From the NCBI RefSeq assembly GCF_001048695.1, contig NZ_CVRB01000003.1:558001-622000 (forward strand): a DNA stretch of 64,000 bases, given 5' to 3'. Shown here piece after piece: positions 5,296 through 49,279 of this stretch. The stretch's first letter is position 1. Each line of letters opens with the position of its first letter. The stretch comes from Neobacillus massiliamazoniensis (GTDB lineage Bacteria > Bacillota > Bacilli > Bacillales > Cytobacillaceae). The position numbers were made by a program, and so were the translations under genes. Under the pieces are notes generated by a model. The model was not told where the DNA came from. It saw only the letters and a list, made by a program, of their open reading frames with translations, and did not search any database.

Positions 5296-5686
5296 TTATA
5301 AGAACTATTTATTTCGTTAGTAGTTTGTGAATTTGTCCTTTACCGATGATAGTATTTTATATTATAATGTCCTTAATTACGAACAAATTCCTCTTCGATT
5401 AACCCAAATTATTACCCAATTTAAAGTGTTTCTCTCCTATTAAAATTTTAATCCTTTATTACGGAATTCTTCTATATTGTGATATTTCCTTGAAATGATC
5501 TATTTTTAAGGAGGTGATTTAATGTCCTAAAAAGTGATAATTATATTATTTTATTAGTCTAAGTTTCATATCCTCTAAGATCTGCTTTAAGTTCAGCCAA
5601 CACATCTTGAATCTTCTCCTTGTTATTGAAAAATTCCTTACTAAAAAAATCCTAGATTATATAAAAAGAGGGGATGGAGTTATTTT
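5296..5686. other. Gene-poor gap with a vestigial start site
   Basis: No convincing gene. A near-perfect Shine-Dalgarno sequence (AAGGAGGTGATTT, from about 5508) is followed by ATG-TCC-TAA, a two-codon reading frame. On the minus strand, about 5559-5655, a short stop-flanked frame ends in a protein-like stretch (IQDVLAELKADLRGYET). Both look like remnants of deleted genes; neither can be named. Confidence 0.4.
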
Positions 5687-32988: not shown

Positions 32989-33032
32989 AAACAAAATCCC
33001 AGCTTTAGGTCATAAAGGGGATTTTGTTTAGA
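32989..33032. terminator. Hairpin between duplicate and tetR gene
   Basis: AAACAAAATCCC / GGGATTTTGTTT, a 12-bp stem with A- and T-rich arms. It probably ends transcription from either side. The remainder of the 32931-33098 gap shows nothing. Confidence 0.65.
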
Positions 33033-33098
33033 AGACCTTGGGAATAAGTTACTTATAAGTGTGAATGGTATAGCTTCTATTTTTATGTTGAATATCTG

Positions 33099-33680
33099 TT
33101 AGTCTTCACCTAATCGAAAAAGCATAGACAACTGTTTAGCAAGAAATTGCGGTGTATAAGGCATATCCCTGCGCAACCAAGCTGAAATCGTTCCGATTAA
33201 AGCTGAGGAACCGTACCAGATCGCAATATCCTTTTGAATGTCTTTCGCAGCGGGTAAGGAGACATTCTCCGATCTCTCTTTTATTGTTGCAGAAATGATA
33301 TTTAACAAACGCTCCATAAAAATTGATGTTCGTTTGGTACTAAGAACTACTTTATAGAATTTGGCATTCTTGGCAATATACTCAAGCAAGGTTTCAAGCT
33401 TCACCCCTCCTATATCCTCAACGGAATTTTGATTCGTTGATGTACTCATCAAGATAGACTCAATATCCTCGGCCATTTCCTGCGCCATTTTCTCCAGCAT
33501 ATCTTGAATGTCACTATAATGGAGATAAAACGTAACACGGTTAATTGTTGCGCGTTCTGCGATTCGATTAACCGTTATTTTATTGATTTCCATCTCCTGT
33601 AGCAAATCTATAAATGCATCTTTGATTAATTGGCGTGTACGAAGAATCCGAGGATCTATTCGTTGCTTTTGATTGTTCAT
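33099..33680 (-). CDS. TetR/AcrR-family regulator
   Basis: About 193 residues: N-terminal helix-turn-helix (RQLIKDAFIDLLQEMEINKI then TVNRIAERATINRVTFYLHY) and a C-terminal TetR_C33-type ligand domain ending MPYTPQFLAKQLSMLFRLGED. The ATG used follows AGAAGGGGGA by 8 bases; the longer frame adds 54 low-complexity residues and lacks a binding site. It is divergent from a HlyD adaptor and a DHA2 exporter, so it most likely represses them and itself and responds to a drug-like ligand. Confidence 0.88.
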   Translation of the reverse strand: MNNQKQRIDPRILRTRQLIKDAFIDLLQEMEINKITVNRIAERATINRVTFYLHYSDIQDMLEKMAQEMAEDIESILMSTSTNQNSVEDIGGVKLETLLEYIAKNAKFYKVVLSTKRTSIFMERLLNIISATIKERSENVSLPAAKDIQKDIAIWYGSSALIGTISAWLRRDMPYTPQFLAKQLSMLFRLGED

Positions 33681-33796
33681 ACTACTAATCCCCCTTCTAT
33701 TGGAAAATTTACAATTATTATTTTTCTGTCTATTATCCTCAGTATTTACTACAAAATTGAAATAAATGATAACTAATATACATTTTTTCAGAAATT

Positions 33797-33864
33797 GTTG
33801 GTTGTAAGAACCAACTTTATATCTATAATTTAATTTATACAATGTTAATTATTCAACACATTGT
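33797..33864. promoter_or_regulatory. Candidate operators in the divergent tetR/efflux promoter
   Basis: Two inverted repeats lie in the intergenic region: GTTGGTT-GTAAG-AACCAAC (33797-33815) and ACAATGTT...AACACATTGT (33839-33864, one extra base in one arm). Either could bind the TetR protein. Placement supports this; no consensus is known to me. Confidence 0.4.
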
Positions 33865-33958
33865 AAAATAAGTCTACATTAAAATTAGAAAGGATAGAAG
33901 AGAATTGATTCATAATTCTAAAACTGTTAACAAAGCTATCATAATAGGAGGATAATTT

Positions 33959-34600
33959 ATGAGTAATAAACGTTTATTATTATTAAACATTATTATTTTA
34001 CTTGTTTTAGTCGGTGGAGGTTTCGGTGGTTATGCCTATTATAATAGTTCTGTAAACTATTTATCGACAGATAATGCTCAAATTGCCGGACAACAAGTAA
34101 CAATTGCTGCAACTGCCAGCGGGAAATTAACAGATTGGAATGGCAAAGTTGGTTCCACATTATCGAAGGATTCTACAGTTGGGACGATAGTAACAACAGA
34201 TGCAACAGGAAAACCTGTAAATATCGATGTTACTGTTCCAACCAACGGAACAATCGTACAAAATAATGCAGTTCAAAATTCATTCGTTGCTGCAGGAACA
34301 CCACTAGCGGTAGCATTTGATCTAAATAATTTGTGGGTAACAGCAAATATTGATGAAACAAAAATTAACGAAGTAGCCGTAGGACAAGACGTTGATATTT
34401 ACGTTGATGCATTCCCAAATAATACGTTAAAAGGAAAAGTACAACAAATCGGCTTAGCAACTTCCGGGACATTTTCCTTGTTACCTAGTTCAAATACTAC
34501 AGGTAACTACACAAAAGTTACACAAGTTGTCCCTGTAAAAGTATCTATTGATGATAATAAAGGTATTGCAATAGTTCCTGGTATGAACGTAACCGTGTGA
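33959..34600 (+). CDS. HlyD/EmrA-type membrane-fusion adaptor
   Basis: A 213-residue protein with a signal-anchor helix (about 5-26), the STDNAQIAGQQVTIAATASG adaptor motif, a short hairpin region and a beta-barrel (LNNLWVTANIDETKINEVAVG), ending in VPGMNVTV. It is shorter than Gram-negative EmrA proteins (about 390), with a minimal coiled coil, as usual in Bacilli. It should link the downstream exporter to the cell-wall side. AATAGGAGG precedes the ATG. Confidence 0.87.
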   Translation: MSNKRLLLLNIIILLVLVGGGFGGYAYYNSSVNYLSTDNAQIAGQQVTIAATASGKLTDWNGKVGSTLSKDSTVGTIVTTDATGKPVNIDVTVPTNGTIVQNNAVQNSFVAAGTPLAVAFDLNNLWVTANIDETKINEVAVGQDVDIYVDAFPNNTLKGKVQQIGLATSGTFSLLPSSNTTGNYTKVTQVVPVKVSIDDNKGIAIVPGMNVTV

Positions 34601-34620
34601 ATTCATAAGTAGGTGATAAT

Positions 34621-36480
34621 ATGTCATTATATATCACGGTATATGTTATTTTAGCCATTTTGCTGTTACTTTTGATCAATTTTAGGTTGATCAATCAAAA
34701 GAATTCTAGCAAGGTTCGGGGAAAGAAGAATATTAAAAGGGTTAAAGAAGTTCATTCCAATAGTGGAGCCAAGGAGAATCTTGCTAAATCTGAAAAAGAG
34801 GATATAAAGATTCAGGAGAACCCTTCGCCGGATTTATCTAATCAAGAGGTGGAAATGCTGAGAGATTCAGCTATTACTAAACCGACATTGGAAAATGCAG
34901 AAGCTGATGTTCAACCGAAGGAAAGCTTAAACAGACGGGAAAAATCTACTGCTACTGACAATGAAAAAGTTTCAGGAACAGGAAAAATTTTAGTTGCTAT
35001 TATGCTTGGTGCGTTTGTTGCCATTCTTAATCAAACCTTATTGAACGTTGCCATTCCACATATAATGAATGATTTGGGCATTACCGCTAATACAGTCCAG
35101 TGGCTTTCAACTGGTTATATGTTAGTAAACGGAATTGCTATTCCAATTACAGCCTTTCTTACTGAAAAATTAGGAACAAGGAAGCTATTTATTTCTGCGA
35201 TGTCCCTATTCACTTTAGGTTCGTTAGTATGTTCCTTATCACCAAATTTTAGTTTATTAATGACTGGGAGGATTATCCAGGGTTGTGGTGCTGGAATTAT
35301 TATGCCTCTTTTAATGACCGTTTTTTTCACGGTGTTTCCTCCGGAAAAACGAGGAAAGGCCATGGGGATCATGGGTACTGTCATAATATTTGCTCCAGCA
35401 ATTGGTCCAACCTTATCCGGTTGGCTAATAGGACATTATTCATGGAGATTTTTGTTTGATATTGTTATTCCATTTGGAGTACTTGATTTAATTCTTTGCT
35501 TTTTATGGTTGAAGGACGTTACTAAAGTGACGAATCCTAAATTTGATTTCCCAGGATTTATATTTTCCACTTTAGGATTTGGGTTTTTATTATATGGATT
35601 TAGTGAAGCAGGGAATGATGGCTGGACTAGTACCACTGTAATCATTTCATTTGCTATTGGAATCATTTCTTTAGCAGCCTTTGTCTGGCGTGAATTAACT
35701 GTTGACAAACCAATGCTTGATTTGCGGGTCTTTAAATATGATATTTTTACATTAACAACCATTATTAGTATGTTGGTTAACATGGCTATGTATGGTGCAA
35801 TGATCATGCTTCCAATATATCTACAAAATATACGGGGATTTACGGCATTACAATCTGGCTTATTAATGCTTCCCGGTGCTGTAATAATGGGAATTATGTC
35901 ACCAATCTCTGGAGCTCTTTTTGATAAAATTGGTTCAAGATGGCTAGCAGTGATTGGGTTAACGATTACGGCACTTACCACATGGCAATTTACTACTCTA
36001 AGTATGACAACGAGTTTTAGTAGAATAGTATTTCTATATTCCATGCGGAGTTTTGGTATGTCATTTATCATGATGACGATCATGACGGAAGGTCTTAATC
36101 AGCTGCCCCGTCACCTTGGTTCCCATGGTACTGCGGTATCCAATACAGCAAAGCAGGTTGCAGGCAGTATTGGGACGGCACTTCTTGTTACAATCATGAG
36201 TACAAAACAAGGGGTCCATTATGGTGAGTTTACGAATACTGTCACAAGTACCAACCCATTTATATCCGGAAATTTTTCTCATATTGCTCAAACCTTATCC
36301 GGTTACGCACACTTACCGCCAGCAGCAGGAAGAGGGCTTACAACCTATTTGATTTATGGTCAAGCTATGCAGCAATCTACAATTGATGGGATTAATGATA
36401 CTTTTATTTTTGCAACAGGAATCGCAATCGTAGGCTTAATTCTATCATTCTTTATTAAACGCGCAAGAGTAAAAGAATAG
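34621..36480 (+). CDS. DHA2-family MFS multidrug exporter with N-terminal extension
   Basis: A 619-residue transporter. Residues about 120-615 give the 14-helix EmrB/QacA fold (VAILNQTLLNVAIPHIMNDL, WLSTGYMLVNGIAIPI, GRIIQGCGAGIIMPL). Residues 1-120 are unusual: one hydrophobic helix (2-22) then a charged, disordered-looking linker with no motif, where relatives of about 480-520 residues begin directly. It is coupled to the adaptor gene (20-bp gap) and probably controlled by the divergent TetR. Drug specificity cannot be read from sequence. Confidence 0.9.
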   Translation: MSLYITVYVILAILLLLLINFRLINQKNSSKVRGKKNIKRVKEVHSNSGAKENLAKSEKEDIKIQENPSPDLSNQEVEMLRDSAITKPTLENAEADVQPKESLNRREKSTATDNEKVSGTGKILVAIMLGAFVAILNQTLLNVAIPHIMNDLGITANTVQWLSTGYMLVNGIAIPITAFLTEKLGTRKLFISAMSLFTLGSLVCSLSPNFSLLMTGRIIQGCGAGIIMPLLMTVFFTVFPPEKRGKAMGIMGTVIIFAPAIGPTLSGWLIGHYSWRFLFDIVIPFGVLDLILCFLWLKDVTKVTNPKFDFPGFIFSTLGFGFLLYGFSEAGNDGWTSTTVIISFAIGIISLAAFVWRELTVDKPMLDLRVFKYDIFTLTTIISMLVNMAMYGAMIMLPIYLQNIRGFTALQSGLLMLPGAVIMGIMSPISGALFDKIGSRWLAVIGLTITALTTWQFTTLSMTTSFSRIVFLYSMRSFGMSFIMMTIMTEGLNQLPRHLGSHGTAVSNTAKQVAGSIGTALLVTIMSTKQGVHYGEFTNTVTSTNPFISGNFSHIAQTLSGYAHLPPAAGRGLTTYLIYGQAMQQSTIDGINDTFIFATGIAIVGLILSFFIKRARVKE

Positions 36481-36683
36481 CTTTAACTATAGTGTGTTTA
36501 TAGTGTGCTTGGCATGGGTTATTTTAACCACAGTGGACGTTTCTGTAATAAACAGGAAGATTTTCTCTAACGGATCAGTTTAATAAGGATATTGACGAAA
36601 AATTATGATATGAAAAGTTTTGTATAAGTAGAAAACAAATGGGATCATAAAATAAAGCTGTTAAAATATGAAACCAATAAATG

Positions 36684-36726
36684 AGGGAATCCTAAAAGTT
36701 TAACTTTTAGGACTCCCTTTTTTGTA
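36684..36726 (+). terminator. Rho-independent terminator
   Basis: AGGGAATCCTAAAAGT / ACTTTTAGGACTCCCT stem and T-run, about 200 bp after the MFS gene. Confidence 0.85.
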
Positions 36727-37177
36727 CATTTTTAACCAGAATATATATAAAGAACACACTAAAACTAAGGTTAAGGTGGATTCGAAATGGATAAAAGAGT
36801 TCTATTCGACTTTGAAATCAAGTTTACGAATGGCGGTGGACTTCACGGACAGGAATTACGTCTTGATATTGCTGGTTGTTAAAGTAGGGGATCTATAGGT
36901 AGGGATAGCAGTAAATGTTTGGTAGCATTCTAATAACATTGAGAGAAGTTTGGGAACAGATGTACTAAAGCTATTAGGGGGGCGATGTATAAATAAAGTA
37001 TTGCCTTTTCCCATGTTCGACTATTATGGCTTCGTTTTAAAAAAATCTGGCTAACCTTATATTATGAACGGGTACAAGAGTTGAAGATGAAAGGTTGACT
37101 CATCAACCCAATTTTTTTCTTAAAATTAAATTATTTTGGCATACTATACACATCCTTCAAATAAAAGGAGTAGTAAT
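36727..37177. other. Gap containing one gene remnant
   Basis: Besides the short frame at 36787 no gene is seen up to the DUF202 gene; stops occur in all frames. Confidence 0.5.
36787..36882 (+). pseudogene. Truncated small-protein gene
   Basis: AAGGTGGA precedes an ATG encoding 31 residues (DKRVLFDFEIKFTNGGG, then GQELRLDIAGC) and a stop. The stretch reads like the start of a small conserved Bacillus protein I cannot name with confidence; the sequence after the stop carries no clean continuation. Confidence 0.4.
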
Positions 37178-37465
37178 ATGAGCGGAAATACTAATGCACC
37201 TAATAAAAACTCAGTATCTGCTAGTGACTTATTGGCAATGGAAAGAACCAAACTAACCAATATTCAGACACTCTTATCCTATATTCGAACATCCCTAACA
37301 TTCTTTGCGGTTGCTGCAGCCCTAATAGAATTTTTTAATAAGAACATAAAATTCGAAATTACAGCGTACATATCCATCACATTAGGAGTAATTCTCCTTT
37401 TGATAGGGTTTTATAATTATTACCGTTCAAAAAAATTGATCAAAGCAGTGCAATGGATTAAATAA
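37178..37465 (+). CDS. DUF202 small membrane protein (YidH/VTC1-like)
   Basis: A 95-residue protein: LLAMERTKLTNIQTLLSYIR followed by TSLTFFAVAAALIEFF, then a second helix (about 68-88) and a basic tail. The ERT-x-LA-x-IRTSL pattern defines DUF202. In yeast the related VTC1-type subunit belongs to the polyphosphate polymerase/translocator. Here it sits 340 bp before two ppk genes, so a polyphosphate-linked membrane role is attractive, but not shown. AAAAGGAG lies before the ATG chosen; the frame could extend 14 codons upstream without a binding site. Confidence 0.82.
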   Translation: MSGNTNAPNKNSVSASDLLAMERTKLTNIQTLLSYIRTSLTFFAVAAALIEFFNKNIKFEITAYISITLGVILLLIGFYNYYRSKKLIKAVQWIK

Positions 37466-37802
37466 TATGTAATACTTAAAATATTCTTTCTATATTTTTT
37501 CACCATTCGATTTTTTAGGTTTATGCTTCATTTAAAAGTTTTCTAAATATACTATAAATATTCTTGTTTACCCAATTTCACGAACCGTTTGAAAGTCATT
37601 TCAAAAACCACAAATTGATAGTTTTTAACTGATATATAGTATAAAATAAAATGGTAAAAAGTGTTTGACAAAGAATATTTTGTGAAATAGATTTATAAAT
37701 GTAATGAATTTATTGTTATCTTATAATAGTAAATTTACAAAAAATCATGGATCTATTTATAAAATATAGTATAGAAAATGTCGAAAAAGGTTGGCATAGA
37801 GT
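37466..37802. other. AT-rich promoter region before the first ppk
   Basis: No gene. A degenerate series TTTACC, TTCACG, TTTGAA, TTTCAA at 10-11 bp spacing (about 37567-37604) recalls PhoP boxes but is weak. TTATAAT near 37721 may be a -10 element. Confidence 0.3.
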
Positions 37803-39923
37803 ATGAAAACTATTAATAGGCTGAATGTAGATTTGAATAGCTCAAAGTATTATAACAATAGAGAGCTAAGCTGGCTTGCGTTTAACGAACGTGTCTTGGA
37901 AGAAGCGATGGACGACAGAAATCCATTATTGGAACAATTAAAGTTTTTATCTATATTCAGTTCAAATCTCGATGAATTTTTTATGGTCCGTGTTGCCGGG
38001 CTTTTAGATCAGGTTAAGGCTGGGTTTAACAAACCAGATAATAAATCTGGAATGACTCCTTCGCAGCAATTACGTGAAATTGCCAAAAAAGCTCATGACT
38101 TAGTTGAACTACAGTATAAAACATTAAAACATATTCTGTTGCCAAAACTGTTGGATGAACAAATTGAATTACTAAGTATAAAGGATCTAACCAAAAATCA
38201 ACTAAACAAACTGGAGGAATATTTTGACGAACAAATTTTTCCGGTTTTAACTCCGATGGCTGTAGATGCATATAGGCCATTCCCTATGCTTTTAAACAAA
38301 AGTTTAAATTTAGCGATTATCCTTGAAGACAAAAAAACGGAGGAAGAAACGAGCTTTAAAATGGCAATTGTACAGGTTCCTTCGGTATTGGAACGATTAG
38401 TCCTATTAGAGACGGAAACCTCTCTGAAAAAAGTCCAATTGATCCTGTTAGAGGAGATCATCAGTTATTTCATCCATAAATTATTTAAAGGATATAAGGT
38501 CGTTTCCGTTTCTGTTTTTCGCATCACAAGAAATGCGGATTTAACCATCCACGAAGAGGGAGCACGTGATTTGCTTAGTGAAATTGAAAAAGAATTGAAA
38601 AAACGCAAATCCGGTGCTGCAGTTAGATTAGAAATTCAGCAAAGAGGTTTAGATAGCAATATTTTGCAATATTTAACAGATGAATTAGAAATTCAGGAAG
38701 AAGACGTTTATAAGATTGATGGACCTTTAGATATAACCATGTTTTTTCGTTTTTATAAGAGAATGAAAAAAAAATACGAACATTTAGTCTATCATCCACT
38801 CGTTCCACAGCAACCCACTGCCCTTGGTGTAGATACAGATTTATTTAACAAGATTACTCATGAAGATATACTGATTCACCACCCATACGAATCGTTTGAA
38901 ACAGTTATTGAATTTATTTCACAGTCAGCAGATGACCCGGAAGTTTTGGCAATCAAACAAACGCTATATAGGGTAAGTGGAGATTCACCCATTATCGATG
39001 CATTAAAACGGGCTGCTGAAAATGGAAAACAAGTAACCGTTTTAGTGGAGCTTAAAGCGCGCTTTGATGAGGAAAACAATGTTCAATGGGCAAAGGAACT
39101 TGAAAAAGCCGGCTGTCATGTTATTTATGGAATGACCCATTTAAAAACACATAGCAAAATAACTCTGGTTGTACGGAGAAAAAATAATCACATTGAACGA
39201 TTTGTCCATCTGGGGACAGGCAATTACAATGATCAAACGGCGAAAATTTATACGGATATGGGCTTATTCACCTCAAAACGAAAGTTTGGCATAGACGCTA
39301 CCAATTTTTTTAATTATTTAAGCGGATTTTCAGAAAAGCCGGAGTTCTTTCACTTATCCGTAGCGCCTTTTGATATCCGAGAAGACCTGATTGAACTCAT
39401 CGATAAAGAAATCTACTTTCATAAAAGATTTACCCATGGTCGAATTATTGCTAAAATGAATTCCATCACGGATAAGAAATTAATTATGAAATTATATGAG
39501 GCGTCGATTGCAGGTGTGAAAATTGATTTAATTGTTCGTGGGACTTGTTGCCTCCGCCCTGGAATTCAAGGAGTTAGTGAAAACATTAAAGTACGCAGTA
39601 TTGTAGGTCGATTTTTGGAGCATAGTCGAATCTTCTACTTCCATCATAATGGGGAAGAAAAAATTTACCTTTCTTCTGCAGATTGGATGACAAGAAATAT
39701 GGAAAAACGCGTAGAAATTTTATTTCCTATTTTTGAGGGGAGTATCAAAATCCGGGTGAATCATATTTTACAGAGTTATTTAGCAGATAATGTAAAATCT
39801 CGGGAACTTGACTCGAATGGCAAATATCACTATGTACCTATTGGCGAGAACAAACAGGAAATAGATAGTCAATTACGATTGTTCAACGAAGCATATGAGA
39901 AAAATCAAACTTTAAATATTTAA
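37803..39923 (+). CDS. ppk: Polyphosphate kinase 1 (first copy)
   Basis: A 706-residue Ppk1, the enzyme that builds polyphosphate from ATP. The N domain begins YYNNRELSWLAFNERVLEEA; FSSNLDEFFMVRVAGLLDQ and HHPYESFE are typical. The C1 domain carries the phospho-acceptor His450 in THLKTHSKITLVVRR, and the C2 domain ends with SSADWMTRNMEKRVEILFP. Length fits the family. It is the first gene of ppk-CHAD-ppx-ppk, 33 bp before the CHAD gene. The second copy, 2.8 kb on, is visibly similar along its whole length. Confidence 0.96.
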   Translation: MKTINRLNVDLNSSKYYNNRELSWLAFNERVLEEAMDDRNPLLEQLKFLSIFSSNLDEFFMVRVAGLLDQVKAGFNKPDNKSGMTPSQQLREIAKKAHDLVELQYKTLKHILLPKLLDEQIELLSIKDLTKNQLNKLEEYFDEQIFPVLTPMAVDAYRPFPMLLNKSLNLAIILEDKKTEEETSFKMAIVQVPSVLERLVLLETETSLKKVQLILLEEIISYFIHKLFKGYKVVSVSVFRITRNADLTIHEEGARDLLSEIEKELKKRKSGAAVRLEIQQRGLDSNILQYLTDELEIQEEDVYKIDGPLDITMFFRFYKRMKKKYEHLVYHPLVPQQPTALGVDTDLFNKITHEDILIHHPYESFETVIEFISQSADDPEVLAIKQTLYRVSGDSPIIDALKRAAENGKQVTVLVELKARFDEENNVQWAKELEKAGCHVIYGMTHLKTHSKITLVVRRKNNHIERFVHLGTGNYNDQTAKIYTDMGLFTSKRKFGIDATNFFNYLSGFSEKPEFFHLSVAPFDIREDLIELIDKEIYFHKRFTHGRIIAKMNSITDKKLIMKLYEASIAGVKIDLIVRGTCCLRPGIQGVSENIKVRSIVGRFLEHSRIFYFHHNGEEKIYLSSADWMTRNMEKRVEILFPIFEGSIKIRVNHILQSYLADNVKSRELDSNGKYHYVPIGENKQEIDSQLRLFNEAYEKNQTLNI

Positions 39924-39955
39924 TCATCAATAAAATAAAAACGGGGTGAATTTGT

Positions 39956-40894
39956 ATGGAAAATCAAAACCAATTATGCTGTATTTGTGACAGTGAACAT
40001 TCTCTCATTGAGGTTAAAGAAAAGTGGATATGTGAAGACTGTTTACATGCCGGAAATGAAAAGCTTGTTTTCCCTTGGAAGAATGTATTAGAAAAACTAA
40101 TGAAGGAATATTCAGAATCCTGTTCGAAATTTATTGCATCATATGACCCAAGGGAGATTCATAAAGCAAAAATAGTTGGTAAAAAAATTAGTACCATTTT
40201 TGAATTTTTAGGGGTTCCTAAAAAACAATCTATTTTTCATGCATTTAGAAAAATGAATCAAGTTTTAAGTAAATTAAGGGTATTAGATGTACTACTCGAT
40301 GAAATGTTGGGACAAACCGAAGAAAAGATTGTTTACAATGAGATGGTAAGATTAATAAGAAAAAATCAAAAAAAATTGCATAAATTAGTAACAGAGGAAT
40401 TCCCGGCAATCATGAATGAATCCTTTTTTGAAAAAATAGAGCTTTTTCTACACAAAGAACTCAAAAGCTATGTTTTACCACTGGAAAGGAAGACTGGATT
40501 GGTGGAGTATGAAGAACGTTTTATCCGTCTCCAAGAGCACTACCATCAGTCTGCAAAGGAAAAGGGCAAAACAGCACTCGAAACCGTAGAATCCATACAA
40601 TCAGTTCGGAAAATTGCAAAGTCATTGCGTTATCTTTTCAATATATTAAATGAGATATTTGGTGAAAACTATCAGGATAAAGAAACTTATTACAAAAGTT
40701 TACAATTACAGTTGAGCAAAATTAGAGATGTTGAGGATTGGCTACAGCAAATTAAGAAATTTCAAAACAAAATCGATGCTCCAAAAAAGGAAATTCAAAA
40801 TGTTAAAAAGGAATTAAAAGCTAGACTTAAGCAACTTTTAGAAGAAGTGGAGTTACCTGAAATGTCCGTAGATGGTACGGTGGAAAGTCACTGA
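39956..40894 (+). CDS. CHAD-domain protein with N-terminal zinc ribbon
   Basis: A 312-residue protein. The first 30 residues hold C8-x2-C11 and C26-x2-C29, a zinc-ribbon-like module. The rest is an all-helical CHAD domain with its conserved basic/His patches: REIHKAKIVGKKISTIFEFL, VRKIAKSLRYLFNIL and LQLSKIRDVEDWLQQI. CHAD domains bind polyphosphate, and its place between ppk and ppx supports that. The ribbon is not a usual CHAD partner and might contact protein or RNA. A terminator with a long loop follows. Confidence 0.85.
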   Translation: MENQNQLCCICDSEHSLIEVKEKWICEDCLHAGNEKLVFPWKNVLEKLMKEYSESCSKFIASYDPREIHKAKIVGKKISTIFEFLGVPKKQSIFHAFRKMNQVLSKLRVLDVLLDEMLGQTEEKIVYNEMVRLIRKNQKKLHKLVTEEFPAIMNESFFEKIELFLHKELKSYVLPLERKTGLVEYEERFIRLQEHYHQSAKEKGKTALETVESIQSVRKIAKSLRYLFNILNEIFGENYQDKETYYKSLQLQLSKIRDVEDWLQQIKKFQNKIDAPKKEIQNVKKELKARLKQLLEEVELPEMSVDGTVESH

Positions 40895-40929
40895 TACATC
40901 TGGTGGATTAAAACGATTCAATGGACTAC

Positions 40930-40976
40930 AAAGCTCTATGGAGGTGTCTTCATAAACTCTTTCAGGGCTTTTTTGT
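40930..40976 (+). terminator. Terminator after CHAD gene
   Basis: AAAGCTCT / AGGGCTTT (one G-U pair), then TTTTGTTTTTT. It would separate ppk-CHAD from ppx. Confidence 0.6.
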
Positions 40977-41099
40977 TTTTTCTAAAATGATAAAGCAGTT
41001 AATGAAAATAGTTCTTTACACACATATAACTTTTCATCATAGGAAATAGAGTTAGTTACTTGTATAATTTAAATTAAGGAATGGATTTGGAGGTTAAAA

Positions 41100-42638
41100 A
41101 TGCAAAATGCCAATAGAAAACTTGCCATTATAGATATAGGTTCGAACACTATACGTCTTGTTATATACTGGAAAAATAAATTTGGAAAATATAAAGAAGA
41201 AGAGAACATTAAATCTGTTGCCAGGTTACGTCATTATTTAGTTGATAACGGGAACCTTCACGATCAAGGTATTTCGATACTGGTAAATTGCCTTAAGGGC
41301 TTTAAAGAAATTATTGAATTTCACAAGGTGGAAGTAGTAAAATGTGTTGCTACAGCAACGATCAGACAAGCATTAAATAAAGAAGACGTCTTAGATATTG
41401 TTAAAGAACAAACGGGTTTTAAAATTGATATTTTATCAGAAAAAGAAGAAGCATATTATGGCTACTTTGCTGTCATTCAAACTACTCCTATAACTGAAGG
41501 AGTCACGATCGATATGGGGGGAGGAAGTACAGAAATTACTTATTTTCAAAATCGCGAATTGAAGTACTCACATAGCTTCCCATTTGGAGTCGTATCGTTA
41601 AAAGAGCAATTTATAAAAGGAGATACCATATCCTTTGAAGAAAAAGAAAGCTTAATAAAGTATATCCAAGAAAGCCTTCAGCAATTGCCGTGGCTAAAAA
41701 ACTTGCAAGTACCAATTATTGCTATTGGAGGTAGTGCTAGAACGGTAGCGCAAATTGATCAAAATTTAAAGAAATATCCGTTGGCCGGAATCCATCAATA
41801 TACCATGTCTACCAGAGATTTAAAAGAGATTCTTGATATGGTAGAAAGATTAAATCCCCTTCAAATAGAAAAATTGGAAGGTGTCTCAAAGGATAGGGCT
41901 GATATTATTCTGCCTGCTTTAGAGGTATTTTTCACGATTAGCGAATATGTCCGAACAGAAAAGTTTATGTTTAGCAAAAAAGGACTAAGAGAAGGAATTT
42001 ACCTTAAAGAATATGAAAAAAATCGAGAAATTACTGAGATCGAGGTGATTGTGTCATCTAACATACAAGAACTGGTGCATGATTATGGAATAAGTGCCCA
42101 GCATTCAAATCATGTAGCACAGCTTGCAAAACAAATCTACACCCAATTAGAAATTGTCAGAGGCTTACAATTGAGTAGCGAAATAAAGAAAATGATTGAT
42201 TTGAGTTCTAGGCTTTATTATGTGGGGCAAATTGTTGATTCCGATGTCAGTAGTCAGCACACTTTCTATTATTTAGCCAATACATCGATTGATGGTTTGG
42301 AACATAAAGACCGTTTAAAGTTAGCCTTAATCGCTTCCTTCAAAAACAAAGCTTTATTAAAACAATACTCCGCGCCATTTGAAAACTGGTTTACCAGAGC
42401 GGAATTGCAAGAAATTAGGATAGCAGGTGCCATAACAAAAATTGCCTCGGCCTTGGATGCATCTAAAAGAGGAGTTATAAAAGATGTCTCGATTCAAAAT
42501 GAATTTCAAAATAATAAATTAATCTTTACCATAGATGGCTCGGGAAATCTCTTCGCTGAAAAATATCAGGCAGAAAAACAGTTAAGACATTTAGAAAAAG
42601 CAATCAAAAAAAATATTCAGTTAGTCTTTATCCACTAA
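41100..42638 (+). CDS. ppx: Ppx/GppA exopolyphosphatase
   Basis: A 512-residue member of the ASKHA phosphatases: phosphate-1 loop IDIGSNTIRLVIY, ATATIRQALNKED, phosphate-2 loop DMGGGSTEITYF and the adenosine-type loop AIGGSARTVAQ. A C-terminal HD-like helical region of about 190 residues follows. It removes phosphate from polyphosphate ends or pppGpp. The ATG follows TGGAGG. It lies between the two ppk genes, so the cluster encodes synthesis, binding and breakdown. Confidence 0.93.
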   Translation: MQNANRKLAIIDIGSNTIRLVIYWKNKFGKYKEEENIKSVARLRHYLVDNGNLHDQGISILVNCLKGFKEIIEFHKVEVVKCVATATIRQALNKEDVLDIVKEQTGFKIDILSEKEEAYYGYFAVIQTTPITEGVTIDMGGGSTEITYFQNRELKYSHSFPFGVVSLKEQFIKGDTISFEEKESLIKYIQESLQQLPWLKNLQVPIIAIGGSARTVAQIDQNLKKYPLAGIHQYTMSTRDLKEILDMVERLNPLQIEKLEGVSKDRADIILPALEVFFTISEYVRTEKFMFSKKGLREGIYLKEYEKNREITEIEVIVSSNIQELVHDYGISAQHSNHVAQLAKQIYTQLEIVRGLQLSSEIKKMIDLSSRLYYVGQIVDSDVSSQHTFYYLANTSIDGLEHKDRLKLALIASFKNKALLKQYSAPFENWFTRAELQEIRIAGAITKIASALDASKRGVIKDVSIQNEFQNNKLIFTIDGSGNLFAEKYQAEKQLRHLEKAIKKNIQLVFIH

Positions 42639-42678
42639 GAAATAACTGCAAAATATTTTTAATTTAATTAATAAAATA

Positions 42679-42706
42679 TTTACACTTCCTTTACAATAAA
42701 TTTACA
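42679..42706 (+). promoter_or_regulatory. Three TTTACA boxes, candidate PhoP site
   Basis: TTTACA occurs three times at an exact 11-bp period (42679, 42690, 42701), 65 bp before the second ppk. B. subtilis PhoP binds TT(A/T/C)ACA repeats separated by about 5 bases. This suggests induction by phosphate starvation. Reading by eye; no matrix score. Confidence 0.6.
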
Positions 42707-42770
42707 TTTTAATGGTATTTTAATAAATATAAATAATACATTCGTAATGGTGTGAAGGAGTTGTAAATAC

Positions 42771-44960
42771 GTGGTATCGACAAGAAAAGACAACCTGACA
42801 ATCAATCTAGAAGCACCATCTTTTTATAATAATCGTGAGTTAAGCTGGTTGTCTTTTAATAAAAGAGTTTTAGAAGAAGCAGTAGATGAACAGAACCCTT
42901 TACTGGAGAGATATAAATTTTTGGCGATTTTCAGCTCTAACCTGGATGAGTTTTTTATGGTCAGAGTAGCTGGTTTATTAGACCAGATGAAGGCCGGCTA
43001 CAATAGACCTGAAAATAAAGCAGGATTGACACCAAAAGAACAAATCGCTGCTATTAGCAAAGTTACAAGTGAACTGGTTGAGGAGCAAGATCGAATTTTT
43101 TTAGAACTTTCCTCTTTATTAGCAAAAGAAGGGGTAAAAATAATTTCGATTACCGAAGTCAATACTTCACATCTATCTTTTTTAGAGACCTATTTTGCTG
43201 AACAATTATTTCCTGTTCTCACACCGATGGCGATAGATGCCTACCGTCCTTTTCCTATGTTATTAAATAAATCTTTGAATTTAGCCATTATACTGCAAGA
43301 AAATAGAGAAGGGAATGCCACCCCGTTCCCTTTTAATGGGAAATTAGCAATTGTACAAGTTCCGTCCATATTTGATCGCTTCATTGAATTGCCTTCAGAA
43401 AACGGGGAAAGAGTATTTGTCTTGTTAGAACAAATAATCTCCCATTTTATACATAAATTATTTAGTGGACAAGTTATTCATTCTGTCACTCCTTTTCGCA
43501 TCACAAGAAATGCCGATTTAGAGTTTGATGAAGACGGAGCTGAAGATTTGTTACATGAAATTGAAGAAGAACTAAAGAAACGTAAGAGTGGTGCAAGTGT
43601 AAGGTTAGAAGTCCAACGTCATTGTTACGACGGTCAAGTGGTCGATTATTTAAAAGAAGAACTTGAAATCGACAATAAGGATGTATATTTTATAGAGTCT
43701 CCTCTTGATTTGACGTTTCTCTATTCATTTTACAAAGTCATTCATTTTACACATGACCATTTGGTTCTAAGATCCTTCATTCCCCAGCCTCCACAAGATT
43801 TAGATCGTCGGGAAGATATTTTTTCTAAAGCACTTAAGGAAGATATATTGCTTCATCACCCATATGAATCGTTTGAGCCGGTTATTCAATTTATTTCCGA
43901 GGCCGCCAATGACCCAGATGTACTTGCTATTAAACAAACTCTCTACCGGGTAAGCGGAAATTCTCCTATTATTAAAAGCCTTAAGAGAGCAGCAGAAAAC
44001 GGAAAACAAGTAACTGTTCTCGTTGAATTGAAAGCCCGTTTTGATGAAGAAAACAACGTCCAATGGGCGAAAGAATTGGAACAGGCCGGCTGTCATGTCA
44101 TTTACGGTATGACACACTTGAAAACCCATAGCAAAATTACGCTTGTTGTTCGGCGTAAACTTGGAAAAATTGAACGTTTTGTGCATTTGGGAACAGGAAA
44201 TTACAATGATGCCACAGCTAAAATTTACACAGACATGGGATTAATTACCTCAAATCGGGAAATTGGCATAGATGCCACTAACTTTTTTAATTATTTAAGC
44301 GGGCATATGGATATGCCGGAATATAATCAATTGTCTGTAGCGCCGTTTGAAATAAGAAATACTTTCTTAGAGTTAATTAACCAGGAAATAGATTTTCAAA
44401 GCAAAAATGGGAATGGGTATATCATTGCTAAAATGAATTCCTTGTCCGACAAACAAATTATCCTGAAGCTGTATGAAGCTTCCAATGCAGGGGTAAAAAT
44501 TGATTTAATTGTCAGAGGCATCTGTTGCTTGCGTCCTGGCATAAAAGGAGTTAGCGAAAATATTACCGTCAAAAGTATTGTAGGGATTTTTTTAGAACAC
44601 TCGCGAGTTTACTATTTTCACCATAATGGGGTAGAGAAGTTATTTTTATCTTCTGCAGATATGATGACGCGGAACATGGAAAATCGAGTGGAAATCCTAT
44701 TTCCGATCTTGAAAGACCATTTAAAGGAACGAGTTAAGGGATGGTTTAAACTAATGCTTGCAGATAATGTAAAGGCGCGTGAACAAGATTCTGAAGGGGA
44801 ATATCATTACGTTAAAATAGCTGACCATGACGCTGTGGTTAATAGTCAACTTCTATTATGTAAGATGGCTTACGATAACAAAAATGAGAGGCAAGTAGCC
44901 AAAAATAAATTGACCAGGAACGGATATGAACCATTCGGAAAAAGTGATATTTTAGAATAA
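42771..44960 (+). CDS. ppk: Polyphosphate kinase 1 (second copy)
   Basis: A 729-residue Ppk1 with all landmarks: FYNNRELSWLSFNKRVLEEA, FSSNLDEFFMVRVAGLLDQ, phospho-acceptor His453 (THLKTHSKITLVVRR), and SSADMMTRNMENRVEILFP. It begins with GTG behind AAGGAG. It differs from the first copy in the middle domain (QENREGNATPFPF insertion) and by a longer, basic C-terminus. The upstream PhoP-like boxes suggest it is the phosphate-controlled isozyme. Confidence 0.96.
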   Translation: MVSTRKDNLTINLEAPSFYNNRELSWLSFNKRVLEEAVDEQNPLLERYKFLAIFSSNLDEFFMVRVAGLLDQMKAGYNRPENKAGLTPKEQIAAISKVTSELVEEQDRIFLELSSLLAKEGVKIISITEVNTSHLSFLETYFAEQLFPVLTPMAIDAYRPFPMLLNKSLNLAIILQENREGNATPFPFNGKLAIVQVPSIFDRFIELPSENGERVFVLLEQIISHFIHKLFSGQVIHSVTPFRITRNADLEFDEDGAEDLLHEIEEELKKRKSGASVRLEVQRHCYDGQVVDYLKEELEIDNKDVYFIESPLDLTFLYSFYKVIHFTHDHLVLRSFIPQPPQDLDRREDIFSKALKEDILLHHPYESFEPVIQFISEAANDPDVLAIKQTLYRVSGNSPIIKSLKRAAENGKQVTVLVELKARFDEENNVQWAKELEQAGCHVIYGMTHLKTHSKITLVVRRKLGKIERFVHLGTGNYNDATAKIYTDMGLITSNREIGIDATNFFNYLSGHMDMPEYNQLSVAPFEIRNTFLELINQEIDFQSKNGNGYIIAKMNSLSDKQIILKLYEASNAGVKIDLIVRGICCLRPGIKGVSENITVKSIVGIFLEHSRVYYFHHNGVEKLFLSSADMMTRNMENRVEILFPILKDHLKERVKGWFKLMLADNVKAREQDSEGEYHYVKIADHDAVVNSQLLLCKMAYDNKNERQVAKNKLTRNGYEPFGKSDILE

Positions 44961-44982
44961 CAAAATAACGACAAAACATGAA

Positions 44983-45036
44983 GGAGCCTGTCATCGAGGG
45001 TTAAAATGCCCTTTGGTAACAGGCTCTTTTTGTGTT
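44983..45036 (+). terminator. Rho-independent terminator
   Basis: GAGCCTGT / ACAGGCTC outer stem with an inner GAGGG / CCCTT pairing and T-tail. Confidence 0.8.
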
Positions 45037-45176
45037 CAATGGGAGAGGTGATGAAAAAAGAAATAACGATTATTTGTTTGAATTAACCCTTAAATAAAGA
45101 ATCTAAAAAAATAACCCGTATACATTGAGGGGATTAAGATACCTTTGGATTATCGGAAGTGTAAGAATGTTTGTAT

Positions 45177-46850
45177 CTATCTATTCCGATGCCTCTCTCG
45201 AAATCTATCGCGATAACTATAGCGTTCTCTGTCATTTTTCTGTGCTTTTATAACCTCCATGGGGCGCATCATTTCATAATCTTCATGCTCCAACAAATGA
45301 CAATGCCACACATAACGCCCAGTGTAGGGTCCAAAACGGCTTATAATGGAGGTAACGTATCCAAAGGGACTCTGAACTGTATCTTTTAATCCCATTTCAT
45401 AAGGTTCAGGAGGAATAGAAGGTCCTGTAAAAATAAGGTTTCCGGTTTTTTGAAAATGGGAAACATCAAACGGCTGGCGACCGAGAATTTGAAAGCCCAC
45501 CAAATGAATATGGATAGGGTGGGGAACATCATTGATCACATTGATAATTCGCCAAACTTCTATACTATCTACTTCAATATTTTCAGTTATTCGGTCCATC
45601 CACAATTTTCCATCCAATAAATTCAAGGAACGACCATACTGATCCTTAATTCTGACAAGTGTTAAATCTCTCGTTCTCTTTGCCATACTTATTGGAAAAC
45701 CTTTGATTTTCCTTAAAAAGTTAGGTATGGAGCTCGTATCTTTCCTTTTTAATGGTACGGTTACCCTGAATTGCATGACATCTCTTGTTTCCGGGGATGC
45801 ACTTTGGGTGACATTCTTTAGAATAATGGTTTTACCGTAGTATTTTGAAAAATCAATGATCACATCTACCCGCTCGGCGCTCATAAGTATAAACTCATTT
45901 ATTTTTACCGTTCTCTCAAGAAAGCTACGATCTGTACCAATTTGATAAAAAGGTTGATTGGAGTCCATTCTTAAAGTAAGGATTCGGCTATTCGATGCGT
46001 TTAAAATGCGGAATCGATATTTTCTCGGTTCAACTTCTAGATATGGATAAACCTTACCATTTACCAAGATCGTATCCGCATCAAAAGGAGGAACAATTGA
46101 AGGATGGGGAAGAGGAAGATTTGCATTACTTTGCTGAGAATGACCAGCATTGTTTTGTTGAGATGTAGCCTCACTATTTTGATGAGGTTGACCTGCATTA
46201 CTTAGAGACGGTTCACTAGGGTAGTAAAGTGATCCATCTGGGTTAATCGAACGGTCTACAATTAAAAGAGGGATTTCATATTTTCCTCTTGGAAGATTAA
46301 GGATTTTTTCATTTGCGTCTCGTATGAGATAGAATCCCGCGAGTCCAGCGTAAACATTCAATCTTGTAATTCCTATCGTATGGTCGTGATACCATAACGT
46401 TGTAGCTGGTTCAATGTTTGGATACGAATAAACCTCTTGTTTGAATAAAGGTCCCGTTTCTTCAAAATTTCTTGTAAACCACGCTTCAGGGTAACCATCA
46501 CTATTGGCAGGTGTTCTTCCTCCATGTAAATGAACAACGGTTCTAACCTCTGGAACCGTTAGTTCTGACCCATGAACCGTTATATCAACGGGAAGAAAAT
46601 GCTTATTCGGTAGATCATTTATCCATTTAACAAACACTGTTTCATTACGCATCACATCGAATGTGGGACCCGGAAATCTTCCTTCATAACCCCATAAACG
46701 GGTTGGAGGAAGGTCCCTGTGTAGCTTCTGATAAAACTCCTTCATGGTCACTTTATAATATGAGCCTTGCTCGTCTCGTTTGATTGGTGAAATAGTTTTG
46801 GGAATCGGTAGTTTATCAACGAATTTTATCAGATTTACTTTTGCAGGCAT
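45177..46850 (-). CDS. cotA: CotA-type spore-coat laccase (multicopper oxidase)
   Basis: A 557-residue multicopper oxidase with all copper motifs: HLHGG, WYHDHT, HPIHIHL and HCHLLEHEDYEMM. The start (LIKFVDKLPIPKTISPIK) is that of B. subtilis CotA (513 residues), which oxidises phenolics and bilirubin in the outer spore coat and pigments the spore. It has no signal peptide, as CotA. The extra length is an Asn/Gln/Ser/His-rich insert at about 213-245 (NAGQPHQNSEATSQQNNAGH). It is divergent from a cwlJ-like gene. Ribosome binding site AAGGAGGGG. Mother-cell expression is inferred. Confidence 0.92.
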   Translation of the reverse strand: MPAKVNLIKFVDKLPIPKTISPIKRDEQGSYYKVTMKEFYQKLHRDLPPTRLWGYEGRFPGPTFDVMRNETVFVKWINDLPNKHFLPVDITVHGSELTVPEVRTVVHLHGGRTPANSDGYPEAWFTRNFEETGPLFKQEVYSYPNIEPATTLWYHDHTIGITRLNVYAGLAGFYLIRDANEKILNLPRGKYEIPLLIVDRSINPDGSLYYPSEPSLSNAGQPHQNSEATSQQNNAGHSQQSNANLPLPHPSIVPPFDADTILVNGKVYPYLEVEPRKYRFRILNASNSRILTLRMDSNQPFYQIGTDRSFLERTVKINEFILMSAERVDVIIDFSKYYGKTIILKNVTQSASPETRDVMQFRVTVPLKRKDTSSIPNFLRKIKGFPISMAKRTRDLTLVRIKDQYGRSLNLLDGKLWMDRITENIEVDSIEVWRIINVINDVPHPIHIHLVGFQILGRQPFDVSHFQKTGNLIFTGPSIPPEPYEMGLKDTVQSPFGYVTSIISRFGPYTGRYVWHCHLLEHEDYEMMRPMEVIKAQKNDRERYSYRDRFRERHRNR

Positions 46851-47092
46851 TTGAGTCAGCCCCTCCTTACAATTAATACTCTAAGTAAGTTTATGAAGGA
46901 AAACTTGTTCATTATGTTTTTAACCAAACACTAGGGATGAATTTTTCCTTATTCCCTTACCGTGGTAGTTGAAGAGAAAATTTGAATTTTATGGTAAAGG
47001 TTATTTGCGAGATGGAGTGGGAATCTCTTATTTTTAGCTTTTGTGAATCTGATAAGGTCTTACTGGCATACGTATAATAAGAGGTGATCGGT

Positions 47093-47539
47093 ATGCCAAG
47101 AGTAAAATATACAACTGATGACGTAGATTTATTGGCAAGAATGATCAGAGCCGAAGCAGAGGGTGAAGGCGAACAAGGAATGCTAATGGTTGGAAATGTT
47201 GGTGTAAATCGTATAGTGTGCAATTGCTTGGATTTTAAAGACATTAGAACTGTCCACCAAATGGTTTATCAAATTCAAGGTGGAAATTATTCCTTTGAAT
47301 GTGTTGAAAAAGGCTATTTTTATCAGCGAGCTAGATCACAAGAAAAAAGATTAGCCAAAAAAAATTTAGATTATTATAGATTATATCCAGCAACATATTC
47401 ATTATGGTATTTTAACCCTCCAGGGGAGGCAGGACAATGCCCACCACAATGGTATGATCAAAAATTAGTTGATGGTTTTAAAAACCATTGTTTTTATCAA
47501 CCAAGTCAACAAGATTGTCCAAATGTATTTAATGGATAA
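47093..47539 (+). CDS. cwlJ: CwlJ-like spore cell-wall hydrolase
   Basis: A 148-residue Hydrolase_2 protein (YTTDDVDLLARMIRAEAEGE with the catalytic Glu, GNVGVNRI, GQCPPQWYDQ). Length and lack of signal peptide and peptidoglycan-binding domain match CwlJ (142 residues), which degrades cortex during germination, rather than SleB. GAGGTGATC precedes the ATG used; a GTG three codons earlier lies inside that site. CATACGTATAAT upstream resembles a sigma-E -10 element. Confidence 0.88.
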   Translation: MPRVKYTTDDVDLLARMIRAEAEGEGEQGMLMVGNVGVNRIVCNCLDFKDIRTVHQMVYQIQGGNYSFECVEKGYFYQRARSQEKRLAKKNLDYYRLYPATYSLWYFNPPGEAGQCPPQWYDQKLVDGFKNHCFYQPSQQDCPNVFNG

Positions 47540-47638
47540 ATTTTAGGCTTTATATCAAACTCTTTCCAAGATCATTTTAAAAAACGAAGGATGACTTTTA
47601 TTTTTGTTAAAGATATGTTGAAATATGAATCCAAAAAA

Positions 47639-47672
47639 TGAAAAGCACAGTTGTACTGTGCTTTTCATTTTT
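47639..47672 (+). terminator. Rho-independent terminator
   Basis: GAAAAGCACAG / CTGTGCTTTTC stem and T-rich tail after cwlJ. The rest of the 320-bp gap is AT-rich promoter-like DNA. Confidence 0.88.
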
Positions 47673-47860
47673 CCATTCAATTATTTTACCTTGTACTTAT
47701 TAAATCCCAAATCAATAAATAATTGTTAAAAAATTATGAATAAAAAATTAATAAAATTGTAAATATTCAGGAATTTATTGTTTGATATGTTGAATTTTGC
47801 TAATGTATTTACAAAAGTGGAAATTATTATTTTTTATAATTTATCCTGAAGGAGTAATTT

Positions 47861-49279
47861 ATGAAAATCAGGTTCCTTTATCAATTAGTTTTAAGTCATT
47901 TAGGTGTTATCTTGGTTGCATTTTTATTATTAAGTACCTTATTTACACATTATATTGAAACGGTAGTTTATCAGGATAAATCTAAAGAATTATTATCGTA
48001 TGGAAAAAATATTCTGCTTGCGTTAGAAAATAATGAATTCGGTCCAGAAAAAGTAATAGGACAATATGAAGAGGTTTTAGCTGGTAGAAACATTAATTTT
48101 TCTCTATTTAATCAAGATGGAAATATCCTATATCCTAAAGGACTCCTAGTTCCAGATGTAAAACTAACGGATGTTGCCCTTGGAAAAATTAAAGGTGGTT
48201 CACCACTTGTAGTTAAAGATAGGATTAGAGGTTCTAATAACGAAGTTACCCTTGTGGCATTACCTTATTTAATAAATAACAAGTTAGTTGGGGGAATATT
48301 ACTAACGTCTCCTATTAGTGGCTCTAATGTGATGATAAATCAAATTAATCATTACTTGATTTATGCCATTCTTATAGCCTTATCAGTATCTTTATTATTG
48401 AGTTGGTTACTATCTAGAATACACGTTAATAGAATTAAACGTATTCAAAAAGCAACATCAATTGTTTCTTCTGGAGATTATTCTGTAACAATTCCGACTT
48501 CCCACTTTGATGAGATAGGTGAACTAGGAAATGACTTTAACCAAATGGTAGACAAAATTAATCGTTCAATGGAAGAAATCAGTGCCTTGGAAAGCAGAAG
48601 AAGGCAATTTATGTCTGATGTTTCACACGAATTAAAAACCCCACTTACTACTATATGTGGAGTTTTAGATGGATTAAATCAAAATATGATCCCCGAAAAA
48701 GAAAGACAAAATGGGATTGCACTTGTTACTAAAGAAGCAAAAAGATTAATACGTCTTGTGAATGAAAATTTGGACTATGATAAAATCAGGTCCAATCAAA
48801 TTAAGCTATTTATACAAGAAATTCAAGTGTTAGAGATAATTGAGGTAATTAAAGATCAATTATACATTCAAGCAGCAGAAAAAGATAATGAGATCATTAT
48901 TGAAGCCGATGAACACTTAATAATTTTTGCTGATTTAGATAGATTACTACAAATTCTCATTAATATTGTTAAAAACAGTATTCAGTTTACAAGTGGTGGA
49001 ACAATTTTCATTCGAGGGAAAGAAGATGAACAGGAGACAATAATAGAGGTTGAAGACACCGGTATTGGAATCGAAGCAAGTGAAGTGGAAAATATTTGGG
49101 GAAGATTTTATAAAGCAGATGTTTCAAGAACCAATAATCCATTTGGAGAATTTGGACTGGGATTATCTATTGTTAAGAAACTTGTAGAACTGCATAATGG
49201 TAAAATTGAGGTATTTAGTGTTAAGAATGAGGGTACAAAATTTGTTCTAAGATTTCCAAAAATGAATTTAAATTCATAA
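47861..49279 (+). CDS. Orphan sensor histidine kinase
   Basis: A 472-residue kinase: helix about 9-31, extracellular sensor (about 32-165), helix 167-187, HAMP (188-240), dimerisation domain with His256 (DVSHELKTPLTT), and HATPase with N box (LINIVKNSIQFTSG), DTGIGIE and GEFGLGLSIVKKLVE. It resembles YclK/PhoR-type kinases. No response regulator gene lies next to it and terminators flank it on both sides, so it is an orphan whose partner is elsewhere. Confidence 0.92.
   Translation: MKIRFLYQLVLSHLGVILVAFLLLSTLFTHYIETVVYQDKSKELLSYGKNILLALENNEFGPEKVIGQYEEVLAGRNINFSLFNQDGNILYPKGLLVPDVKLTDVALGKIKGGSPLVVKDRIRGSNNEVTLVALPYLINNKLVGGILLTSPISGSNVMINQINHYLIYAILIALSVSLLLSWLLSRIHVNRIKRIQKATSIVSSGDYSVTIPTSHFDEIGELGNDFNQMVDKINRSMEEISALESRRRQFMSDVSHELKTPLTTICGVLDGLNQNMIPEKERQNGIALVTKEAKRLIRLVNENLDYDKIRSNQIKLFIQEIQVLEIIEVIKDQLYIQAAEKDNEIIIEADEHLIIFADLDRLLQILINIVKNSIQFTSGGTIFIRGKEDEQETIIEVEDTGIGIEASEVENIWGRFYKADVSRTNNPFGEFGLGLSIVKKLVELHNGKIEVFSVKNEGTKFVLRFPKMNLNS

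Follow-up and report, generated by a model that had tools for sequence, protein, structure and literature searches.

We analysed a window of 64,000 nucleotides of Neobacillus massiliamazoniensis DNA (assembly GCF_001048695.1, contig NZ_CVRB01000003.1, forward-strand positions 558,001 to 622,000), in which a set of polyphosphate genes lies between positions 37,178 and 44,960. It consists of two polyphosphate kinase 1 (Ppk1) genes, here called ppkA and ppkB, a gene for a CHAD-domain protein and a predicted exopolyphosphatase gene (ppx), with a gene for a DUF202 protein upstream (Table 1). Gene calls in the window were checked against Pfam cut-offs and NCBIfam models; all five reading frames were in place and all exceeded their Pfam cut-offs, confirming the original prediction of a polyphosphate locus with two Ppk1 proteins, CHAD and Ppx. 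Three features had no place in that prediction: a third ppk1 elsewhere in the genome, Cys-x2-Cys pairs ahead of the CHAD domain, and an array of repeats upstream of PpkB. Our findings make it probable that the polyphosphate genes form a composite, cytoplasmic locus under split control, to which the DUF202 gene is unrelated.

Genes and features of the locus

PpkA and PpkB are 64% identical. Each carries all four Ppk1 domains above the Pfam cut-offs, and they match TIGR03705 (polyphosphate kinase 1, NCBIfam) with 927.2 and 898.3 bits, respectively. The sequences HSK, FVHLGTGNYN, RGxCCLRPG and EHSR, which we take to be Ppk1 active-site motifs including the phospho-accepting His, are all present in both proteins and in a third Ppk encoded elsewhere in the genome (contig C2; match G000:C2:256373-256921). 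From these domains and motifs, both PpkA and PpkB are predicted to synthesize polyphosphate. The ppx product scored 305.3 bits with TIGR03706, just below the cut-off of 307, and only 125.2 and 108.5 bits with the models of E. coli-type Ppx and GppA. Besides the three ppk1 genes the genome contains a single gene each for DUF202 and CHAD and a single clear ppx; another Ppx/GppA match remained under the cut-off.

The CHAD gene starts 33 bases after ppkA, and the two genes are probably co-transcribed. Two hairpins followed by T runs, a possible terminator after the CHAD gene and a probable one after ppkB, were found by folding, and both are absent from the list of the consensus scan. The sigma-A-like promoter candidate of ppkA is weak, because such matches are expected by chance (45 promoter-like sites in 36000-46500 compared with 40.3 expected). 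No Rfam match at gathering scores, and hence no structured RNA leader, was detected within 33000-47900.

Table 1. Features of the polyphosphate locus and the adjoining DUF202 gene, in window coordinates (aa, amino acids)
Feature	Position	Strand	Evidence and remarks
DUF202 protein, 95 aa, two hydrophobic segments	37178..37465	+	PF02656 41.4 bits (cut-off 23.4); hydropathy; probably a bystander
Candidate sigma-A-like promoter of ppkA, TTGACA-17-TAGATT	37665..37693	+	10/12 positions; weak
ppkA, polyphosphate kinase 1, 706 aa	37803..39923	+	Four Ppk1 domains; TIGR03705
Putative zinc ribbon (C8, C11, C26, C29) and CHAD domain, 312 aa	39956..40894	+	PF05235 40.6 bits (cut-off 25.6)
Possible terminator between the CHAD gene and ppx, hairpin then T runs	40925..40985	+	Fold of 40900-40985, -16.3 kcal/mol
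ppx, predicted exopolyphosphatase, 512 aa	41100..42638	+	PF02541 194.9 bits (cut-off 27)
Predicted Pho box, four TTHAYA repeats 11 bp apart (one TTAATA, three TTTACA)	42668..42706	+	Ends 64 bp before the ppkB start
ppkB, polyphosphate kinase 1, 729 aa, GTG start	42771..44960	+	Four Ppk1 domains; TIGR03705
Probable terminator of ppkB, strong hairpin and T run	44980..45035	+	Fold of 44955-45040, -31.8 kcal/mol

Two kinase lineages and a predicted Pho box before one of them

Relatives were drawn from two samples, 121 genomes of the family and 299 genomes of the order, the window's genome counted in. We fetched a set of 40 ppk genes, comprising 36 of 46 matches from the family sample (38 if the window's own pair is counted) and four from the order sample. 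One of the 40, the ppk of genome G063 (L109:5633-7817), is split over two overlapping frames of 104 and 655 aa, by a frameshift or an assembly error, and was entered once. In a quick tree of 42 Ppk1 proteins (LG+G4), supported only by values of the Shimodaira-Hasegawa-like approximate likelihood ratio test (SH-aLRT), PpkA groups with the Ppk1 of genome G006 (L082) with moderate support (SH-aLRT 91). PpkB groups, at SH-aLRT 99, with the Ppk1 of G102, which is 78% identical and comes from a genome of the same genus. The third Ppk stands in another well supported clade. A recent tandem duplication of ppk was rejected, as the copies occupy different places in the tree.

G006 carries ppk, CHAD and ppx in the same order as the window (identities 74, 44 and 68%), and in G102 a Pho box and the gene of a PpkB-type kinase come after ppx. 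From these arrangements, the window locus looks like a ppkA-CHAD-ppx module that has been joined to a Pho-box-ppkB unit. A ppx gene lies within the same fetched stretch for 34 of the 40 ppk genes. Of 16 genomes sampled from the genus, two have Ppk1, one of them being the window's, and gain or loss of the gene is therefore frequent.

A single small open reading frame lies between the third ppk1 (L084, 7659-9848, minus strand) and a long gene identified by eye as a P-type cation ATPase (2629-6867, minus strand). Neither Ppx, CHAD nor a Pho box was found in this stretch (L084:2629-9848).

The 132-base gap before ppkB has a G+C content of 18% and holds four in-register TTHAYA repeats. Repeated at 11 bp, this hexamer is presumably the PhoP box form of B. 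subtilis. Shuffling the gap with its dinucleotides kept yielded four repeats in 0 of 20,000 trials and three in 4 of 20,000. At most one repeat is present in each of the gaps that precede DUF202, ppkA and ppx. The original prediction had proposed that the two kinases differ in their promoters, and this was borne out: the three-repeat pattern occurs before PpkB with 0 mismatches, compared with 4 mismatches for the best match within 300 bp of PpkA. The best match within 300 bp upstream of the third ppk likewise has 4 mismatches, and within the window the box stands before PpkB only.

We searched the genome (5.6 Mb) for three TTHAYA repeats in 11-bp steps, using the reversed pattern as control, and obtained 9 matches at 8 sites as against 2 matches for the control. 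One site lies 65 bp before the alkaline phosphatase gene phoA (PF00245, 455.6 bits) and another 64 bp before phnG of a carbon-phosphorus lyase set (PF06754, 114.2 bits), which is also the spacing at ppkB. Among the fetched ppk genes, 10 of 40 carry the pattern within 300 bp at no more than one mismatch (six of them exactly), compared with 0/40 for the reversed pattern and 0/35 for ppx genes. The ppk of G102, PpkB's closest relative, has an exact three-repeat box of its own that differs in sequence. We found no sign that CHAD genes are generally under Pho control: the best three-repeat match before the relatives' 19 CHAD genes has 3 to 6 mismatches. Considering the box and its genomic company, ppkB is best read as phosphate-controlled through a predicted PhoP box.

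In the literature, 11-nucleotide direct repeats are described as the general form of the PHO box, and Ppk as being induced for phosphate storage in most bacteria (passages of PMC4415409). Elsewhere ppk is named among storage genes, without a tie to PhoP in the passages concerned (PMC4744853), and the relevant passages of PMC12676729 make no mention of ppk or polyphosphate.

The putative zinc-ribbon CHAD protein

The predicted model of the CHAD protein is confident, with a mean predicted local distance difference test score (pLDDT) of 91.9, and resembles CHAD structures along most of its length. Its top Foldseek match was 6qva, a CHAD structure with bound polyphosphate (E 8.5e-5). Structural alignment gave a Z score of 20.1 with 6qva (265 residues aligned, root mean square deviation 3.2) and 22.1 with 6qv5 (261 aligned, 3.1); we used the five CHAD-type entries, the lower rows being receptor fusions or other helical proteins. 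The four Cys before the CHAD domain, arranged as Cys-x2-Cys pairs, are invariant in all 20 aligned members of the family, and zinc-ribbon families match these members only below their cut-offs. The Cys pattern suggests that the ribbon binds metal.

In CtCHAD, the conserved basic residues at the polyphosphate site are His253, Arg256, Arg260, Arg296 and Arg418-Tyr419 (PMC6537752). Compared by motif and not by superposition, the window protein has HxxKxxxK in helix 1, R108, R225-Y226, and Gln215 in place of a second conserved His. Helix 1 reads HxxRxxxR in most members, and the G006 protein is changed further. Two Arg of helix 1 are replaced by Lys and one His is lost; polyphosphate binding by the window's CHAD protein may therefore be weak, which counts against its proposed role at the polymer.

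Co-occurrence of families was assessed by comparing observed and expected genome counts. The CHAD family was present in 19 of the 299 order genomes, in 10 genera, and all 19 possess Ppk1, compared with 152/299 overall (Fisher P 2.2e-6); counted by genus, Ppk1 occurred in 10/10 CHAD genera against 67/116 (P 0.003). In the other 18, the stretches of 14.5-17 kb retrieved with the CHAD gene showed no ppk. The alignment has a pair of AbrB-type hairpins ahead of the ribbon for 14 of the 20 members. The hairpins match AbrB, SpoVT, MazE and MraZ models or structures, and at E 0.001 Pfam assigned MraZ to 13, MazE to 12 and CHAD to 18 of the 20. The six members without the AbrB part, the window's among them, all fall on the same side of a branch with support 100 in a tree built without outgroup and hence unrooted.

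The loci L066-L073 and L076-L081 encode two AbrB-type hairpins, a four-Cys ribbon and CHAD away from ppk, all of them in genomes with Ppk1. L080 and L081 retain the AbrB portion along with the four Cys, but most CHAD polyphosphate-site residues are lost. For CHAD together with AbrB, a literature search listed one paper (PMC11796401). Around the CHAD genes, one group of reading frames recurs in 10 of 19 loci, apparently encoding ATPases of the ATP-binding cassette type (by eye), and smaller groups recur in 4 or 5.

These features raise the possibility that the zinc-ribbon CHAD protein is a polyphosphate-responsive regulator acting on DNA or RNA, and not a granule protein. The profile-supported AbrB-type hairpins of most members would fit a regulator, as would the invariant Cys and the presence of Ppk1 in every CHAD-family genome of the order. 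However, the window protein is one of the hairpin-free members on their common side of the branch, and the CHAD domains examined in PMC6537752 bound polyphosphate but not nucleic acids. We therefore regard a regulatory function of the window protein as unlikely, and prefer binding to polyphosphate or its granules.

Weighing the proposed phosphate control of ppkB

Several observations weigh against phosphate control of ppkB through the box. The available passages of PMC4415409 back 11-nucleotide direct repeats, not the TTHAYA hexamer. A clear phosphorus role is found downstream at 3 of the 8 genomic sites (phoA, phnG and ppkB); of the others, L130 and L132 point at no open reading frame of at least 100 aa, L131 lies upstream of a DUF347 protein, and L124 and L127 lie upstream of proteins without a clear role. 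Moreover, 30 of the 40 related ppk genes lack a box at no more than one mismatch, and 8 of the 10 box-bearing ppk genes are closer to PpkA than to PpkB. Because of this last finding, the box is to be seen as common before ppk in the family and not as a mark of the PpkB lineage.

At L127:1501-3026, a box-like site lies about 280 bases before the gene of a beta-propeller protein, judged by eye to be secreted; no phosphatase family was assigned to it in the part seen. At L124:1-1528, a box-like site precedes the gene of a protein of unclear family, likewise secreted by eye.

An alternative to split control is that the two kinases are redundant, ppkB having been transferred in and being expressed like ppkA, with the box a chance product of the 18% G+C gap. 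The AT-richness of the gap and the five of eight genomic sites without a clear phosphorus gene would be compatible with chance, but no shuffle of the gap reproduced four repeats, and phoA and phnG have the same pattern at a matching distance upstream. The patchy occurrence of ppk1 in the genus and its three copies in three places of the tree are as transfers predict. Yet the box of the G102 ppk, being different in sequence, and the contrast between ppk and ppx genes among relatives both argue against a chance product. We consider it quite unlikely that the kinases are redundant and the box fortuitous, and retain split control as the preferred explanation.

The DUF202 neighbour

The original prediction placed a DUF202 protein directly upstream of the locus and suggested that it could be a VTC1-type part of a membrane polyphosphate compartment, by analogy with the eukaryotic vacuolar transporter chaperone (VTC) complex. 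Its gene does come next upstream, on the strand of the locus, but 'directly' was too strong, as a gap of 337 bases (21% G+C) precedes ppkA.

In the family sample, DUF202 was found in 61 genomes, Ppk1 in 39 and both in 13, below the expectation of 19.7 (P 0.012). The corresponding numbers for the order sample were 118, 152 and 58, compared with 60.0 expected for both (P 0.72). Among the 12 other family genomes with both, the two genes share one contig in six (nearest in G072, ~27 kb apart) and lie on different contigs in six. Among the 57 other order genomes with both, they share one contig in 16 (nearest 13.9 and 15.1 kb, start to start, in two genomes of one other genus), lie on different contigs in 37 and were not placed in four (G198, G272, G358 and G371). 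Of the genomes in which both genes were placed, DUF202 thus lies beside ppk solely in the window's, although for gene pairs on different contigs of draft genomes neighbours at contig ends are not strictly excluded. A lack of conserved DUF202 adjacency in relatives, which the original prediction had named as its own refutation, was therefore observed as far as genes were placed. In G006, which shares ppk-CHAD-ppx, the DUF202 gene is on another contig. With the window's DUF202 protein as query, four other genomes of the 299 were matched, by two close relatives (59% and 58% identical) and two weak ones, and none of the four has a Ppk1 match. CHAD and DUF202 occurred together in 10 of 19 genomes, against 7.5 expected (P 0.24).

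The protein itself is also short and divergent. In the genome scan the window's DUF202 protein scored 38.8 bits, whereas the remaining matches in the family sample ranged from 52 to 74, and hydropathy indicates two hydrophobic segments where the five ordinary DUF202 proteins compared have three. It reads NIQT where these five and VTC1 have NERT, with Gln for Arg. By alignment, this Arg is residue 31 of the Vtc1 chain in 8i6v (7ytj is shifted by one). Arg31 is a channel-wall residue of the VTC structure, and changing K24 and R31 together raised VTC activity in vitro (PMC9911596); the loss of the NERT Arg alone is therefore not decisive. Searched against the PDB, the window's protein matched no VTC chain at E up to 10, nor did a profile of DUF202 proteins at E up to 1; an ordinary DUF202 protein of a relative aligned with the solved Vtc1 chains (PDB 7ytj and 8i6v) at E 0.19-0.28. 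No bacterial DUF202-ppk locus appears among the titles of the matches listed in the literature on DUF202 and polyphosphate.

A VTC1-like role for the DUF202 protein, as the membrane partner of Ppk1 and CHAD in a polyphosphate compartment at the bacterial membrane, was therefore rejected on linkage in the placed relatives, co-occurrence and sequence; in spite of its position, its Pfam family and the Vtc1 alignment of an ordinary relative, we hold such a role to be highly improbable. The DUF202 gene is probably an unrelated neighbour and no part of the polyphosphate locus.

Other genes in the window

Downstream of the locus lie genes for a multicopper oxidase (45177-46850), whose nearest model is the o-aminophenol oxidase PhsA, matched far under its cut-off, and for a protein resembling sensor histidine kinases by eye (47861-49279). 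Upstream lies a pair of genes for an EmrA-like adaptor and a transporter of the major facilitator superfamily (33959-36480), with a gene for a TetR-like regulator (by eye; 33099-33842) divergent from it.

Discussion

The composite locus with split control can be summarized as follows. PpkA and the zinc-ribbon CHAD protein would be expressed as one unit, with PpkA making polyphosphate under ordinary conditions, the CHAD protein binding the polymer or the granule surface and Ppx breaking polyphosphate down. Under phosphate limitation, PhoPR would act through the four-repeat box and switch on PpkB as a second kinase, and phosphate captured by the Pho response could then be banked. Two neighbouring Ppk1 lineages, one of them predicted to be phosphate-responsive, could offer a way to tell the storage role of polyphosphate from its role in stress, two roles that are confounded in bacteria with one kinase.

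For the zinc-ribbon CHAD family of the order as a whole, we tentatively suggest, as a rather doubtful extension from domain composition, a function in coupling polyphosphate to DNA. In most members, AbrB hairpins, ribbon and CHAD are combined, and polyphosphate might set the binding site on DNA, or granules might be tied to the nucleoid. The window's form, devoid of hairpins, might then have joined the operon of its ligand's synthase, beside a phosphate-controlled second kinase.

The locus is mostly of a known kind. Its strongest new points are that, of two adjacent Ppk1 genes, one has a predicted Pho box, and that the ribbon-CHAD family includes relatives carrying AbrB parts. Polyphosphate operons of the E. 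coli ppk-ppx type were reportedly described by Akiyama et al. in 1993. Like them, the window has Ppk1 beside Ppx; it differs in that two Ppk1 lineages flank CHAD and Ppx and that a possible terminator and a Pho box split the set. The stand-alone CHAD proteins that PMC6537752 describes from polyphosphate operons are similar in lying beside polyphosphate enzymes and in the fold (match to 6qva), whereas the window protein has an N-terminal four-Cys ribbon and weaker conservation of the polyphosphate site. Work on Streptomyces lividans, as cited in a passage of PMC4415409, makes ppk a member of the Pho regulon; PHO-box-type 11-bp direct repeats before a ppk are common to both cases, and here one of two neighbouring ppk1 genes is boxed.

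With Vtc1 of the VTC complex (PMC9911596; PDB 7ytj and 8i6v), the window's DUF202 protein shares the Pfam family, and it differs in lacking linkage to ppk in the placed relatives, the NERT arginine and a third hydrophobic segment. A VTC-like reading of this bacterial DUF202 protein is tempting and unsupported, and we have removed it from our account of the locus. Finally, AlgP of Pseudomonas aeruginosa has been proposed to tether polyphosphate granules to the nucleoid (PMC9239181). A similar tether role is what we tentatively propose for the relatives with AbrB hairpins, ribbon and CHAD, a family that would join a polyphosphate-binding fold to DNA-binding parts. AlgP has KPAA repeats and different domains, and the window's CHAD protein has no AbrB part.

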